In this document: in pieces, positions 24,314 to 56,131 of the stretch
Position numbering within the stretch: the stretch's first letter is position 1
Layout: the number at the start of each line of letters is the position of its first letter
From: Melioribacteraceae bacterium
Lineage (GTDB): Bacteria > Bacteroidota > Ignavibacteria > Ignavibacteriales > Melioribacteraceae
DNA length: 64,000 nucleotides
Assembly: GCA_030584085.1 (NCBI GenBank)
Contig: CP129490.1
Span: 3,443,511 to 3,507,510, forward strand
Direction of reading: 5' to 3'
Notes under the pieces: generated by a model
Told to the model about the DNA's origin: nothing
The model's input: only the letters and a program-made list of their open reading frames with translations
Database searches by the model: none
Position numbers and translations under genes: made by a program

Positions 24314-24353
24314 ATGATGAAATCAGAAACGAACATAAAAAACCAAATGGAGG
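24294..24353 (+). promoter_or_regulatory. Hairpin that can hide the ribosome site of the alternative TTG start
   Basis: CCTCCTTTGG (24294-24303) pairs with CCAAATGGAGG (24343-24353) in ten pairs with one bulged T. The 3' arm contains GGAGG (24349-24353), the best ribosome binding site in the region, 5 bases before TTG 24359, which is in frame with the surface protein. The loop holds ATGATG at 24314. Pairing is seen directly; regulation is inference. Confidence 0.5.
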
Positions 24354-27300
24354 CTACATTGAATAAGAGAAATTTACTCTCTTCTATTCTAACAGTTGTT
24401 TTCTTAGTAACAGGGTTAACAACACAACTATTCGCGTCGGTTAATCCGAACGCAGATCAAAAACAAACTCCTTATAATCCGGGTAATGTTATTATGACCG
24501 GTGCTAGTACTGCAAAAGTATTTGGTATCGACAAAGGTACAGGCGATATTGATATAACAAACCCTTATTCAAATAATACACAAGAAGTTTGGGCAGGTAC
24601 ATTTAAAGGTGATTTAGACGGACAGAATGCTAAATTTTACTGTATCGATCTACAACATCCTTTAGCAACATGGACCTCAGAACATCAACATGAATATACA
24701 GACGATGGAAATACTCCGGCGGAAATAACTTATATACTATATAATTATTATCCATTTAAATCACTTCCATATTCCGGTTCGTTAACCGAGTCGAAAGAAG
24801 CCGCTGCAGTACAGTTGGCAATTTGGCATTTTGCAGATGGTGTTAATGCAAATACAATTAGTAAATCAGATATTAAAAGCAGAACTTTAGCAATTATAGC
24901 TGATGCAAATGCCAATGCAGCTTCAATTACTTACGCTAACACATTAACAATTGTTCCTTCAACACAAACAATTCCTAGTGGTCAAGCAGCTCTTTTTGAT
25001 ATTTACACAACAGATAATTTTGACAATGCTGCACCAAATATTTTAGTAAATCTTTCAAGTACTTCCGGTACTTTAAGTGACGTTTCAGTTACTACGGATG
25101 CAACAGGTCATGCTGGTCCGGTTAGCTTAACTCAAGGTGCTGTAGATTTTGCCAATGTAACTGCAACGGCAGAAGTAACAATACCTTTGGGAACAAGATA
25201 TGTACATAAAACAAATCCGGACGATAAACAAAAATTAGTACTTGCAACACCTACGACCGGAACCCTTAACAGAACAGCCGAAGTTAATTGGGAATTTGCC
25301 GAAGATGATTGTGACGGTGACGGCGATAATTCTGTTTCAATATTTGACGGATTTAAATTTGAATTTGACGGTATGATTAATAATGGAGACGGAACTTCTA
25401 CTTGGACTTATACAGTAACCGGTATGGGTGCTTCGAAAGATCTTTCTCATTGGGTACTTGCTCTTTGTGAAGAACACGAAGTACTTAGTGCATCATTCAG
25501 CGGGAAATGGGAAGTTGTAGTTGATCCTACCACAAGTGTTTATGGTATTAAGTGGGATAAAGAAATTGATAAAAACGGTGGTACACTTACTTTCTCATTT
25601 ACACTCAACGGTATTTATGATATAGATATAGTTGATATAGCTTTTAAAGCAGGTACCTCGAGTTATTATTGTACAATTCTTGGTCCTTCTTGTGAAGAAA
25701 TTGAAGATTGTGAAAACAAAATCGGTGATTTCATTTGGCATGATAAAAACGTGAACGGAATTCAAGACAACAATGAACCTGGTATTGAAGGTGTTGTTGT
25801 TGAGTTGACTTATGGCAGTACTACTCTAACCACTACAACTGATGAAAACGGTTATTATGAATTTGCCGGTTTAGAAAATGGCACTTATTCAGTTAAAGTT
25901 GCTTCTTCAAATTATGCTGCGGGTGGTGTTTTGGAAAGTACTGACCAAACTAAATGGTACTCGACAAAGAAAAATGAAGGTAGCGACGATTCAAAAGATA
26001 GCGATGCAAACAAAAATGAATCTGTTACAGTAACATTAGATTGTGCAGATAACACAACAATAGATTTTGGTTTCTATAAAACATGTGTTTCAATAATTAA
26101 AGAAGGTCCTGCTACGGCTAAACCTGGTGATGTAATCACATATACTTTCCGAATTGAAAACTGCGGCGATGTTACTCTTAGCGGTGGTGTGGATATATAT
26201 GATGATTTAATAAATCCATCCGGTGATCATAAAATCAAAAACATTACACCGGTTCATCCTGGTGACGTGAAATTCTTCGAAAAAGAATACACAGTTAAAT
26301 CGACAGATTGCGGCGAGTTAGTTAACCATGCATGGGCTATCGGGCATCCAATTGACGGATCCGCAAATGTACGCGATGACTCTGAATGGACAACCATGAT
26401 TGAATGTGCACCGGATTGTTCAGGTGAAATCGGTGATAGAATTTGGTTAGATTACAGAGAAGACGGTGGTGATAAAAACTGTAACGGTATTCAAGACGGA
26501 TCAGGTGCAACTTCAGAGCCCGGTATTTCTAATGTTAGAGTTATATTAAAAGATGCGGCAAATACTCCAATAGATACAGTTTATACAAATTCAAACGGTA
26601 ACTATCTATTTACAGGACTTTGTGCCGGAACTTACTTTGTATTTGTTGATGAATCAACTTTACCGGAAGGTTACACACCTGCACCAACAGATCAAGGTAG
26701 TAACGACGCAAAAGATAGCGATGTAAATGGAGTCGAAGTTGTCTTACCACACGATGATTCAAAAGATTATACAATTGATTTCGGTTATTGTGCTCCTGCT
26801 GAAGAACCTGAAGTTGATATAGAAGTTATTAAATCAGCATCTACTTATAATGCAGAAGACGGAACTCAGTTTAATTACATTATAACAGTTACTAATAATG
26901 GTCCTGACGATGCTCACGGAGTAGAAGTGTCTGATCTTCTTCCTGACGGTGTTGTATTTATAGCAAGTTCAGCTTCTGTAGGATCATATGATCAAAACAC
27001 AGGCGTATGGAATGTTGGAAACTTAGCAAACGGAGCTTCTGAAACATTACAAATTACAGTTCAAGTTGATGTTGAAGATGTAAACAATGCTAGTTTCAAT
27101 TTAGGAATCGCTTCTGATTACAACTTGTTTGTTCTTTATGATGCAACACAACCTTCATCCGATACAGAAGGAAGAGTTGCTGTTGGTAGAAATGCAAGTT
27201 TTGCAAATTACAGTGTTGGGGATAAACTTCCCGCTAATAGCGGTGATGTGCTGATTGTCGGAAACGATCTTCAATACACTTCCGGTGCGGTTTATAACGG

Positions 27301-29176
27301 AAACATAGTTTATGGTAATACAACAAATCTAGATAGTGTTTACTACGCTGTAAGTATTAGTGGTGGTTCTTTAATAAAGAATCCTAATCGTATTGACTTC
27401 TCAGCAGCTGAGGGTTACTTACTTGGATTATCCTCAACATTGTTCGGTTATAGTGTAAACGCTACAACAACAATGGAATGGGGCGGCTTAAAGTTAACCG
27501 GTACTGATCCTTATCTTAATGTATTTAGCGTTGATGCTGCTGATCTTTCTGCAGCTAATAATGTAACAATCAATGTACCTAACGGTTCTGTTGTGCTTGT
27601 TAACGTTAGCGGAACTACTGTAAGTTGGTCCGGTGGTTTAACAGTACAAGGTACATCAATAGGAAATGTGCTTTATAACTTCAAAGAAGCAACAGATATT
27701 ACAATTCAAGGTATTGACATTCGCGGTTCAATTCTTGCACCAAAAGCACACGTTAATTTTGTAGCCGGTGTACAGAACGGTCAAATGATTTGTAAATCAC
27801 TTGAAGGAATGGGTCAATTCAACAACTCACAATTTATTGGCAATATTCCGGTTGAACAAGTCATTACAAACGTTGCAACATTAACAAACGTAATTGAAAC
27901 AGATACAAATCCAGACAATAATAGTGACGATGCTGTTGTCGTAGTGAATGGTCAAGATAATGGAAACGGTGGTGGCAATGGTGGTGGAAACGGCGGCGGA
28001 AGTGGAGATGGTAATTGGGAATACATTGGTAGCTTCTTAGAAGGTCAAATAGTTTGGTCACTAGCTTATACTGACGATGGATGTATCTTAGTCGGTACAT
28101 GGGGTGGCGCAATCTATAAATCAAATACAGAAGGTACAGAGTTTACACAAATTAACGAAGATATGAATGTTGGTTTCATTTGGTCATTGTTAGTCCATAA
28201 CGGTTACTACTATGCTGGTACTGAACAAGGTGTATTTAGATATAATGGATCTACCTGGACATTAGTTGGTTTAGCTGGTATGGATGTAAGATCATTAGTT
28301 GCAGTTGAAGGAAAGATCTACGCGGGTGTTTGGACTGGCGGAGTTTATGTCTCTGAAGATGATGGATTGACATGGACAAACCTACAATCCGATATGCTTA
28401 ACTGGGCAGCAGTACACGATATAACAGTTACATTCGATCTAGACTTTAACATCGAACTCTTCGTTGCTACATTAGGTAACGGTGTATGTTACTCAGGTGA
28501 CGGAGGTGCTTCGTGGGTTGAACTAAACATTGGTTACAACTTTGTATGGTCAATCGCTTCAACATCTAACGGTACATTATTCGCCGGTACATACGGTGGT
28601 GGTCTTTACACATCTGTTGACGGTGGAATGAACTGGTCACATGTTACTGAAGTAACTGCAAACTATATCTATGACATAACAGTTGACGTAAACAATAATG
28701 TTTATATCAGTACACTACTTGGTGGAATATATGTTTCGGTTGACGGTGGTTCATCATTCAACAATGCTGGGATGGGCGGATTAGGTACTAGCTCAGTATT
28801 AGCATTCGGTTCTTCTGAAGCAAGCAACGTATATGTTGGTACAAGTGATGGTAAGATCTATCGCAAAACTGATAACAATGGTGTAACTTCAGTTGAAGAT
28901 GAAGATTTACCAAGAGAGTTCAAATTGGATCAAAACTATCCGAACCCATTTAACCCAAGTACAACAATTCAGTTTGCAGTACCAAAAGCTGGTGAATATA
29001 AAGTTGTTGTTTATAACATCCTCGGTCAGCAAGTTGCAGAATTACTAAATACTCAATTGCAACCGGGAGTTCATAAAGTGGATTTCAGTGCTAATCAATT
29101 AGCATCCGGTATCTATATCTATCAACTGATTGGTCAAGATGTAAACTTCTCCAAGAAGATGATATTAATAAAGTAA
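24314..29176 (+). CDS. Giant T9SS-exported surface protein with thioester, SdrD_B, DUF11, choice-of-anchor A and beta-propeller domains
   Basis: Of 1620 residues: signal peptide to about 42; TQXA-type thioester domain about 54-205, with Cys110 (FYCIDL) and Gln167 (AAAVQLAIWHFAD) as the expected Cys-Gln pair; Ig-like about 205-290; a domain with acidic DCDGDGD; SdrD_B-like domains about 468-588 and 704-825, each beginning IGDxIWxD; a DUF11-like domain between them; DUF11 about 834-922 continuing at 1179-1214; choice-of-anchor A-like about 924-1178; Gly-rich linker about 1215-1233; BNR/Ycf48-like propeller about 1234-1522; T9SS type A tail from 1535 with NYPNPFNPSTTI. It is probably a cell-surface adhesin. 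ATG 24314 has a weak ribosome site; TTG 24359 (MNKRNLL) has GGAGG. A strong terminator follows. Confidence 0.9.
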   Translation: MMKSETNIKNQMEATLNKRNLLSSILTVVFLVTGLTTQLFASVNPNADQKQTPYNPGNVIMTGASTAKVFGIDKGTGDIDITNPYSNNTQEVWAGTFKGDLDGQNAKFYCIDLQHPLATWTSEHQHEYTDDGNTPAEITYILYNYYPFKSLPYSGSLTESKEAAAVQLAIWHFADGVNANTISKSDIKSRTLAIIADANANAASITYANTLTIVPSTQTIPSGQAALFDIYTTDNFDNAAPNILVNLSSTSGTLSDVSVTTDATGHAGPVSLTQGAVDFANVTATAEVTIPLGTRYVHKTNPDDKQKLVLATPTTGTLNRTAEVNWEFAEDDCDGDGDNSVSIFDGFKFEFDGMINNGDGTSTWTYTVTGMGASKDLSHWVLALCEEHEVLSASFSGKWEVVVDPTTSVYGIKWDKEIDKNGGTLTFSFTLNGIYDIDIVDIAFKAGTSSYYCTILGPSCEEIEDCENKIGDFIWHDKNVNGIQDNNEPGIEGVVVELTYGSTTLTTTTDENGYYEFAGLENGTYSVKVASSNYAAGGVLESTDQTKWYSTKKNEGSDDSKDSDANKNESVTVTLDCADNTTIDFGFYKTCVSIIKEGPATAKPGDVITYTFRIENCGDVTLSGGVDIYDDLINPSGDHKIKNITPVHPGDVKFFEKEYTVKSTDCGELVNHAWAIGHPIDGSANVRDDSEWTTMIECAPDCSGEIGDRIWLDYREDGGDKNCNGIQDGSGATSEPGISNVRVILKDAANTPIDTVYTNSNGNYLFTGLCAGTYFVFVDESTLPEGYTPAPTDQGSNDAKDSDVNGVEVVLPHDDSKDYTIDFGYCAPAEEPEVDIEVIKSASTYNAEDGTQFNYIITVTNNGPDDAHGVEVSDLLPDGVVFIASSASVGSYDQNTGVWNVGNLANGASETLQITVQVDVEDVNNASFNLGIASDYNLFVLYDATQPSSDTEGRVAVGRNASFANYSVGDKLPANSGDVLIVGNDLQYTSGAVYNGNIVYGNTTNLDSVYYAVSISGGSLIKNPNRIDFSAAEGYLLGLSSTLFGYSVNATTTMEWGGLKLTGTDPYLNVFSVDAADLSAANNVTINVPNGSVVLVNVSGTTVSWSGGLTVQGTSIGNVLYNFKEATDITIQGIDIRGSILAPKAHVNFVAGVQNGQMICKSLEGMGQFNNSQFIGNIPVEQVITNVATLTNVIETDTNPDNNSDDAVVVVNGQDNGNGGGNGGGNGGGSGDGNWEYIGSFLEGQIVWSLAYTDDGCILVGTWGGAIYKSNTEGTEFTQINEDMNVGFIWSLLVHNGYYYAGTEQGVFRYNGSTWTLVGLAGMDVRSLVAVEGKIYAGVWTGGVYVSEDDGLTWTNLQSDMLNWAAVHDITVTFDLDFNIELFVATLGNGVCYSGDGGASWVELNIGYNFVWSIASTSNGTLFAGTYGGGLYTSVDGGMNWSHVTEVTANYIYDITVDVNNNVYISTLLGGIYVSVDGGSSFNNAGMGGLGTSSVLAFGSSEASNVYVGTSDGKIYRKTDNNGVTSVEDEDLPREFKLDQNYPNPFNPSTTIQFAVPKAGEYKVVVYNILGQQVAELLNTQLQPGVHKVDFSANQLASGIYIYQLIGQDVNFSKKMILIK

Positions 29177-54109: not shown

Positions 54110-56131
54110 ATGAAAATTATAATATTGTTTTTTTTATTTGTACTTATAAGCAGATTATGTCTAGGTCAAAATGAAATCGATACTGGTCTAATAGCTCATT
54201 ATCCGTTGAACGGGAATGCGATTGACATTTCAGGGAATAACTTACACGGAGACTTAATAGGAACTCAATCCACTCACGATCGTTTTGGTAATTTTGGTAG
54301 TGCTGTATTTTTTAATGGAGAAAACGATTTTATAAACTTAGGCAGTAGCAATTTATTAAAACCTTATCCTCCGATAACAATTGCAGTATGGGTAAATTAT
54401 GCTTCCCTACCAGCGGTAATTTGGGGTAATGATTTTAACGAAACAATTTATTACGGGCTAAGGTTATTGGTAAACCAAAACAATATAATTGACTTTTCTT
54501 ATTGCAATGGACTTAATATTGGCCCCAATGCAAGAAAAACAGTGATGGCCGATATACATGCCCCAAACCAATGGGTGCATATTGCTGGCACAATTGATAT
54601 AAATTATAATATGCAACTTTATATAAATGGAATTAAGGCTGATATTGAACAAAGTGGTTATGCAGAATCTTTAGTTTATAGTGATGGTCCTGCTGTATTT
54701 GGAATGCTGGATAGTCAGACTTACGGACCTCCATATTTTTTGAATGGACGTCTCGATGATTTCAGACTGTACAACAGAGTCTTAACTGATAGGGAAATTA
54801 GAGCTCTTGTTGATGGGTGGGACAATTCCAAAAACTTTTTGCTTTCTATAGATAATGTATTAATGGATAATCCAAATCAAATAGAAGTTCCAGTCTATTT
54901 TACCATCCCCGACAATAAAACTCTAAATTCCTTTGAAATTGACATAGAAGGATTCCAAGATGATGTGAATTTCCACTATTTATTAACTGAAAATAGTGAT
55001 GTCCTAACAAGCGATTGGGGAATTTCTGTTTATAGTACTTCAGAAGGTATTTCAATTGCTGGAGCCACTGAAATTAGTTCTGGTGAGACGAGGTCAGGTT
55101 TATTTTTTAATTTGATCTATTCTGTTGAACAACCGATACTTGAAAATAAAATTGTACCACTTATTGTAACTAAAGCAATAGTGAACAATAATTCTAGTTA
55201 CGTAGAGACAATCAACGGCTCTATAACTGTTTATTCAGACGAGATTACATATGGTGATGTCGATTTAGACGGACAAGTAAGAGCTCTCGACGCCTCCTAT
55301 ATATTAGAATACTTAATTGGCGGAATTGAATTTAACAACACTCAATTTCTTTCTGCTGATGTTACTCTCGATTCAACCGTGTCCGGTCTTGATGCAAACA
55401 TTATATTGGATTACTTAACTGGAAAAGTTCAAAAATTACCATACACTCCGGACAGTAATCATATTGCATTCACAGGTAAATTTTATATGGATGACATCGT
55501 TGACGGCGAATCTGCATTGATTGAATTACCGATTTATTTAGAAACTCAATCGAATACTTTTTCAGTTGAGGGTGAAATTGAATTCGATAATAAAAAGTTT
55601 GAGTTAATTTCAGTACGATGGGGAAAAAAGTATTCAAATTTTTCAACTACATATTCAAATAATAATGGACTAGTCAGTTTTGCTTTATTTGGAAATACAA
55701 TTCCTGGTAGTGATACTTTACTTACATTTATTCTTAGTAATAAAGTATTTGTCGAAAATTCTGTTGTTTCCTTAGATCGTGTTAGAGTCAACGAATCCAA
55801 GAACCAATTTAATGTTGCTTCCTCTATTCTTAACATGTTAACTGATGTTAAGAATGAGGTAAGTCTGTTGAATTACACTTTAGATCAGAATTATCCGAAT
55901 CCGTTTAACCCTTCCACTACAATTTCATTCACAATACCTAATAGCGAGCATGTAAGCCTTGAGATATTTGATGTTTTAGGAAGAAAAATCTCAACATTAG
56001 TAAATAGCAAACTTGCTGCTGGGAATCATGCATTTACTTTTCATGCTGATGAGTATAATAGTGGACTGTATCTATATCGGATAACATCTGGAGATTTTAT
56101 AGATGTAAGGAAGATGATCTTAATAAAATAA
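54110..56131 (+). CDS. T9SS surface protein: LamG, cohesin-like, dockerin, cohesin-like
   Basis: Of 673 residues: signal peptide (1-20, ending LCLGQ); LamG/concanavalin-like domain about 25-225 (GLIAHYPLNGNAIDISGNNL, NQWVHIAGTIDI, FLNGRLDDFRLYNRVLTDRE); cohesin-like beta sandwich about 243-378; dockerin type I pair about 380-440, with a good calcium loop DVDLDGQVRALDAS and a weaker second loop DVTLDSTVSGLDAN; second cohesin-like domain about 450-575; T9SS type A sorting domain from 589 with NYPNPFNPSTTI. It is probably a glycan-binding surface protein. A CCTGAGG-type ribosome site precedes the ATG. It follows the polysaccharide cluster by 207 bases. Confidence 0.88.
   Translation: MKIIILFFLFVLISRLCLGQNEIDTGLIAHYPLNGNAIDISGNNLHGDLIGTQSTHDRFGNFGSAVFFNGENDFINLGSSNLLKPYPPITIAVWVNYASLPAVIWGNDFNETIYYGLRLLVNQNNIIDFSYCNGLNIGPNARKTVMADIHAPNQWVHIAGTIDINYNMQLYINGIKADIEQSGYAESLVYSDGPAVFGMLDSQTYGPPYFLNGRLDDFRLYNRVLTDREIRALVDGWDNSKNFLLSIDNVLMDNPNQIEVPVYFTIPDNKTLNSFEIDIEGFQDDVNFHYLLTENSDVLTSDWGISVYSTSEGISIAGATEISSGETRSGLFFNLIYSVEQPILENKIVPLIVTKAIVNNNSSYVETINGSITVYSDEITYGDVDLDGQVRALDASYILEYLIGGIEFNNTQFLSADVTLDSTVSGLDANIILDYLTGKVQKLPYTPDSNHIAFTGKFYMDDIVDGESALIELPIYLETQSNTFSVEGEIEFDNKKFELISVRWGKKYSNFSTTYSNNNGLVSFALFGNTIPGSDTLLTFILSNKVFVENSVVSLDRVRVNESKNQFNVASSILNMLTDVKNEVSLLNYTLDQNYPNPFNPSTTISFTIPNSEHVSLEIFDVLGRKISTLVNSKLAAGNHAFTFHADEYNSGLYLYRITSGDFIDVRKMILIK

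Follow-up and report, generated by a model that had tools for sequence, protein, structure and literature searches.

A predicted class II thioester domain in a giant surface protein that ends in a type IX sorting tail, from a Melioribacteraceae bacterium

Introduction

The survey that defined thioester domains (TEDs) returned hits exclusively from Gram-positive bacteria (PMC4450167). A later survey reported that Bacteroidetes have many adhesive domains in common with Gram-positives; TED is not named among them (PMC8286594). A giant gene in the 64,000-nucleotide stretch analysed here (the window), from a Melioribacteraceae bacterium, raises the question of whether a Gram-negative protein predicted to be exported by the type IX secretion system (T9SS) carries a TED, and, if so, which residues would form the bond. 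A sequence-only reading had proposed a thioester domain at residues ~54-205 with a Cys110-Gln167 pair. We found no literature on thioester domains with T9SS or in Ignavibacteria.

Results

The gene and its start

The features of the locus are listed in Table 1. The reading frame was numbered from the ATG; the true start is likely the TTG, as suggested by a GGAGG 5 nt upstream of it, and this start would give the protein a conventional signal peptide. The gene lies beside a TerC/Alx-family gene and a short opposite-strand ORF without a family match.

Table 1. Features of the giant surface protein gene (positions in the window; residues counted from the ATG)
Feature	Positions	Strand	Basis
Giant surface protein gene, 1620 aa read from ATG 24314	24314..29176	+	ORF
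Candidate ribosome-binding site GGAGG for TTG start 24359	24349..24353	+	Sequence; inferred
Putative signal peptide LNKRNLLSSILTVVFLVTGLTTQLFA	24359..24436	+	By eye, from sequence
TED head (beta-barrel and three-helix bundle), residues ~63-208	24500..24937	+	PF08341 match; AF2 elements
Cys110, predicted thioester Cys, YCID motif; sole Cys in residues 1-330	24641..24643	+	50/51 relatives
Gln167, TQxxPhiW-type helix motif, not bond partner	24812..24814	+	51/51 relatives; PMC4450167, PMC6194298
Inserted Ig-like beta-sandwich (Big_1/intimin type), class II insert, residues ~209-292	24938..25189	+	Profile matches, VIA
Beta P-beta Q hairpin TRYVHK...KQKLVLATP closing the TED, residues 293-320	25190..25273	+	AF2 strands
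Gln306, predicted thioester-forming Gln	25229..25231	+	49/51 relatives; register with SfbI, CpTIE and PnTIE Gln
SdrD_B stalk domain, residues 469-587	25718..26074	+	PF17210
DUF7507 (CLIPPER_2) stalk domain, residues 596-684	26099..26365	+	PF24346
Second SdrD_B-like stalk domain, limits approximate, by eye	26420..26795	+	PF17210 (two stretches)
DUF11/CLIPPER first part, Lys840 and Asp874	26816..27091	+	PF01345 835-926; triad conservation
Choice-of-anchor A/pAdhesive_15 ice-binding-like beta-helix inside DUF11	27116..27841	+	TIGR04215 E=3.7e-59; PF20597; fold search
DUF11/CLIPPER last strands, Asn1186	27845..27943	+	Triad conservation; 9IFR alignment
Beta-propeller-like region (Sortilin/BNR type)	28244..28777	+	PF15902
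T9SS type A sorting tail	28937..29164	+	TIGR04183, PF18962

A thioester domain is present and widespread in the order

The Pfam TED model PF08341 matched residues 108-199 (E=4.7e-14; 53.1 bits, where the gathering score is 22), so the profile search proposed for the domain gave a clear match with this family. With the second family proposed, TIGR03934 (TQXA), residues 138-178 scored 29.7 bits and marginally missed the cut-off of 30.4 bits.

We assigned almost no probability to the PF08341 match being a chance or contaminant feature. The source genome is complete in one contig of 3.74 Mb, in which PF08341 matches once, and TED and T9SS tail lie on the same open frames. A profile scan of genome contigs revealed 17 loci, labelled as Ignavibacterium, Melioribacter, Stygiobacter or other Ignavibacteria, plus two labelled as Chlorobiaceae and Bacteroidetes. 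Across an evenly drawn sample of the phylum, the TED was present in 33 of 395 genomes, 31 of which belong to the order of the window; in the family of the window it was present in 56 of 79 genomes (44/56 for the high-quality ones). The family counts, the complete genome and the shared frames together rule out a chance match. These findings indicate that the TED is widespread in this bacterial order and occurs in most genomes of the family.

Gln306, not Gln167, is the predicted bond partner

Cys110 lies in FYCIDL, and Gln167, 57 residues further on, lies in VQLAIWHFAD. Both residues and their spacing were as the sequence-only reading had described; the assignment of Gln167 as the bond partner was not upheld. 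In published TEDs the bond Gln lies on a later PhiQzetaPhiPhi strand, and the TQxxPhiW-helix Gln is dispensable for the thioester (PMC4450167; PMC6194298). The window protein has a second candidate, Gln306, in KQKLVLATP, which follows the Ig-like stretch and stands 196 residues past Cys110. All three class II motifs were found: [YFL]C-Phi-zeta, which holds the bond Cys, as YCID; TQxxPhiW as VQLAIW, with V166 in place of T and with Q and W invariant in the relatives; and the terminal PhiQzetaPhiPhi strand as K/Y-Q-K-L-V, where K305 of the window protein occupies a hydrophobic position.

In an alignment of 51 non-redundant TED ORFs, which share kinship so that the counts are not independent, Cys110 was conserved in 50, Gln306 in 49, and Gln167 and Trp171 in all 51. 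Gln306 lies more than 100 residues outside the 102-position Pfam model with which most relatives were collected. Both Gln306 exceptions are copies within a single tandem cluster (L017): the first carries Lys at this position, and the second has Cys110 replaced by Ser and Gln306 by Pro and retains Gln167 and Trp171. The cluster (L017:468-10842, on one Ignavibacteria contig) consists of four short genes, each encoding a TED and a T9SS tail.

A Cys110-Gln167 thioester in a compact domain confined to residues 54-205 would agree with the invariance of Gln167 and with the position of its equivalent, which adjoins the thioester in solved TEDs (PMC6194298). In those structures, however, this Gln is beside the thioester and not part of the bond, and the bond-forming Gln sits on the terminal strand. 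Moreover, a Cpa (streptococcal) TED mutated at the TQxxPhiW Gln still forms the thioester, as cited in PMC4450167, and the copy that lacks both Cys110 and Gln306 still has Gln167. On the literature, the fold register (below) and conservation we rejected this pair, which we consider highly improbable. Proximity of Cys110 to Gln167 would be a misleading test, because solved TEDs have that Gln adjacent to the thioester anyway. Sequence, conservation and fold comparison instead predict Gln306 as the bond-forming Gln. The PF08341 match confirms a thioester domain within the span first proposed, but its end at ~205 was not upheld: the domain runs on through the beta-sandwich insert to ~320 (about position 25273 of the window), beyond the 24473-24930 first assigned to it. 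Gln306 is thus the residue to mutate and guides construct length; a construct stopping at residue 205 would be without the bond.

The predicted fold places the domain in class II

A phmmer search with the head alone against PDB gave a best E of only ~0.7, to CpTIE; assignment of the TED class was therefore beyond the reach of sequence alone. A profile of the relatives matched PDB entries in the insert, which was intimin/invasin-like, and weakly in the head; Big_1 was found in relatives.

Residues 42-320 were modelled by AF2 together with 17 relatives (pLDDT 85). The AlphaFold training set consists of solved structures, TEDs included. The model runs from barrel strands through three helices and sandwich strands to a terminal hairpin (strands 253-257, 267-269 and 273-278 in model numbering), with the insert between helix 3 and strand P and no alpha0 helix. 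In Foldseek against PDB the best match was 6fwy, the E. faecium TIE86 TED (E=2.2e-11, 281 columns), followed by 6fwv, the B. anthracis TIE (E=4.2e-8), and the SfbI TED (E=4.1e-4). The whole-model TM-score was just 0.49 and rmsd was high, which may mean that head and insert are hinged differently in the model. VIA-align gave Z 16.4 for 6fwv (rmsd 9.3) and 14.9 for 6fwy (rmsd 7.9) over ~228 residues, Z 10.8 for a third class II TED, and Z 9-12 for class I TEDs in the head part; intimin (Z about 10) and invasin domains matched the insert alone.

The same alignments bear on the bond partner. Their C-terminal ends (model/structure) were 274/270 for SfbI, 274/276 for CpTIE and 273/255 for PnTIE. On the assumption of gap-free ends, the proven bond Gln of each (261, 267 and 247, respectively) falls on model residue 265, which is Gln306; the CpTIE C138A mutant gave a register off by one.

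Class II TEDs are defined by a beta-sandwich of seven strands that separates helix 3 from strand P and by the lack of an alpha0 helix; the sandwich, ~75 residues, precedes the last hairpin (PMC6194298). EfmTIE86 (6fwy), BaTIE (6fwv) and SaTIE (6fx6) (Miller 2018, PMC6194298) share with the model a head without alpha0 and a sandwich in this place. As in these Gram-positive proteins, the bond Gln, here the predicted one, is on the terminal hairpin and the TED is N-terminal on a stalk; the Cys-Gln spacing is 195 in BaTIE, 204 in EfmTIE86 and 171 in SaTIE (PMC6194298), against 196 here. The class I TEDs of SfbI and Cpa (PMC4450167; 5a0l, 2xid) resemble the model in head fold (Z 10-12 over 149-164 residues), whereas they have an alpha0 helix and no beta-sandwich insert. 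By predicted fold and motifs, the TED of the giant protein is class II (slipknot).

TIEpLS20 of the B. subtilis conjugative plasmid pLS20 (PMC8092201) is likewise a large multidomain surface protein with a class II TED, whose thioester Cys is essential (PMC8092201). It also pairs these two motifs, as YCID...YQRLM at a spacing of 188. In contrast to the window protein, it is plasmid-borne, Gram-positive and has a role in conjugation, and sequence similarity is weak: hhalign of the TED relatives against the pLS20 TIE family gave E 0.048.

The giant protein differs from the Gram-positive class II TIE proteins in its Gram-negative host, its T9SS tail instead of LPXTG, an insert that is Big_1/intimin-like by sequence, and a stalk built from SdrD_B and DUF11/DUF7507 domains. 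It is therefore outside the strict sense of TIE (Gram-positive, LPXTG).

The stalk holds a conserved Lys-Asp-Asn triad and an ice-binding-like domain

DUF11 domains can be locked by an isopeptide bond that joins Lys to Asn, with Asp as the catalyst, as in the Acinetobacter CLIPPER (DUF11) structure 9IFR with Lys715, Asp748 and Asn806 (PMC12617251). The window protein has a triad in the same order, conserved in relatives at Lys840 (45/45), Asp874 (43/45, with Glu in the other two) and Asn1186 (44/44). Its DUF11 domain differs from 9IFR in being split by an ice-binding-like domain of ~240 residues (935-1176), which sits between Asp874 and Asn1186. In an AF2 model of residues 827-1216 (pLDDT 88.8), ice-binding proteins matched model residues 100-349 with Z 18, and 9IFR matched residues 5-386 across the insert (118 aligned residues, Z 13.5). 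The latter match is consistent with a split CLIPPER domain in the model.

Eight relatives were scanned for domains. Seven had TED, pAdhesive_15 and T9SS tail; the eighth, a short protein of the L017 cluster, had TED and tail alone. At another locus (L012:5144-6319), a second stretch akin to the DUF11 and choice-of-anchor A part was observed upstream of the TED gene.

A type IX tail replaces LPXTG

The proposal that the protein carries a type IX tail in place of LPXTG held: TIGR04183 scored 40 bits against a cut-off of 23, and the genome encodes SprA (1039 bits) and the sortase PorU (989 bits). The tail family has 132 matches genome-wide, nearly all above cut-off. All 46 complete ORFs among the relatives end in an NPFNP-type T9SS tail. 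A further T9SS tail was seen in the window at 55892-56119, on a 678-aa open frame.

Discussion

Proposed mechanism and alternatives

The giant protein is in all likelihood a T9SS-anchored fibrillar covalent adhesin with an N-terminal class II TED (residues ~63-320), built like a Gram-positive TIE. From the sequence families, fold prediction, conservation, tail and T9SS genes at hand, we infer thioester formation, reactivity, export, anchoring and isopeptide bonding along the following lines. Once the protein has passed through Sec, Cys110 of a beta-barrel strand would condense spontaneously with Gln306 of the terminal hairpin and release ammonia, and Gln167 and Trp171 of helix 2 would line the thioester site. 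The T9SS (SprA) would move the protein over the outer membrane, and PorU would cleave off the C-terminal tail and anchor the protein at the surface. The thioester would end up at the distal tip of a stalk that comprises SdrD_B and DUF7507/DUF11 domains. There, attack on the Gln306 acyl group by a target nucleophile, probably the amine of a Lys, would yield an intermolecular isopeptide bond. The ice-binding-like domain within DUF11 would be a second adhesive domain, and the Lys840-Asp874-Asn1186 triad may act as an internal isopeptide clamp.

The TED could instead be a stable scaffold, with the thioester buried or hydrolysed and binding achieved non-covalently through loops or the ice-binding-like domain. 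TEDs vary widely, most of those characterised have no known biological target (PMC6194298), and the ice-binding-like second adhesive module is strongly conserved, in keeping with such a role. However, Cys110 and Gln306 are near-invariant in relatives and degenerate TEDs are confined to the tandem extra copies of one genome (L017), and we consider a scaffold unlikely.

The covalent adhesin has a variant, compatible with the mechanism above, in which the partner is not an external substrate but another cell or the cell's own surface, as in aggregation, biofilm or mating-pair contact. In B. subtilis, conjugation is promoted by a class II TED adhesin (PMC8092201), and Melioribacter roseus, a cultured relative, is free-living with cell-surface cellulolytic activity (PMC3534657), so that a host ligand is not required. 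No conjugation genes were seen adjoining the TED protein gene, however, and we hold this variant to be possible but somewhat less probable than its contrary.

With a covalent adhesin as the preferred reading, we lean, with less confidence than for the adhesin itself, towards the broader view that a free-living Gram-negative order uses a T9SS-anchored counterpart of TIE, composed of a reactive class II thioester head and an isopeptide-clamped ice-binding-like domain. If so, thioester chemistry would be compatible with the periplasm and with passage through the type IX pore; we found no precedent for a TED Cys crossing the oxidising periplasm. The question is raised of whether the labile thioester is made ahead of export, while the protein is still periplasmic, or only once it has reached the cell surface. 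A conserved family of T9SS-borne TEDs would mean that covalent adhesion is not restricted to sortase-anchored proteins or to host infection but also occurs in free-living diderms.

Origin and other anchors

A tblastn search against plasmids returned Gram-positive records only, with weak matches. A putative transfer from Gram-positives is a plausible source of the TED. In another genome of the phylum (L083:1300-1962), a small class I-like TED (YCVD, LQAAIW, KQGLV) was observed with a PEP-CTERM tail, which, judged from its sequence, may represent a second diderm anchor for TEDs.
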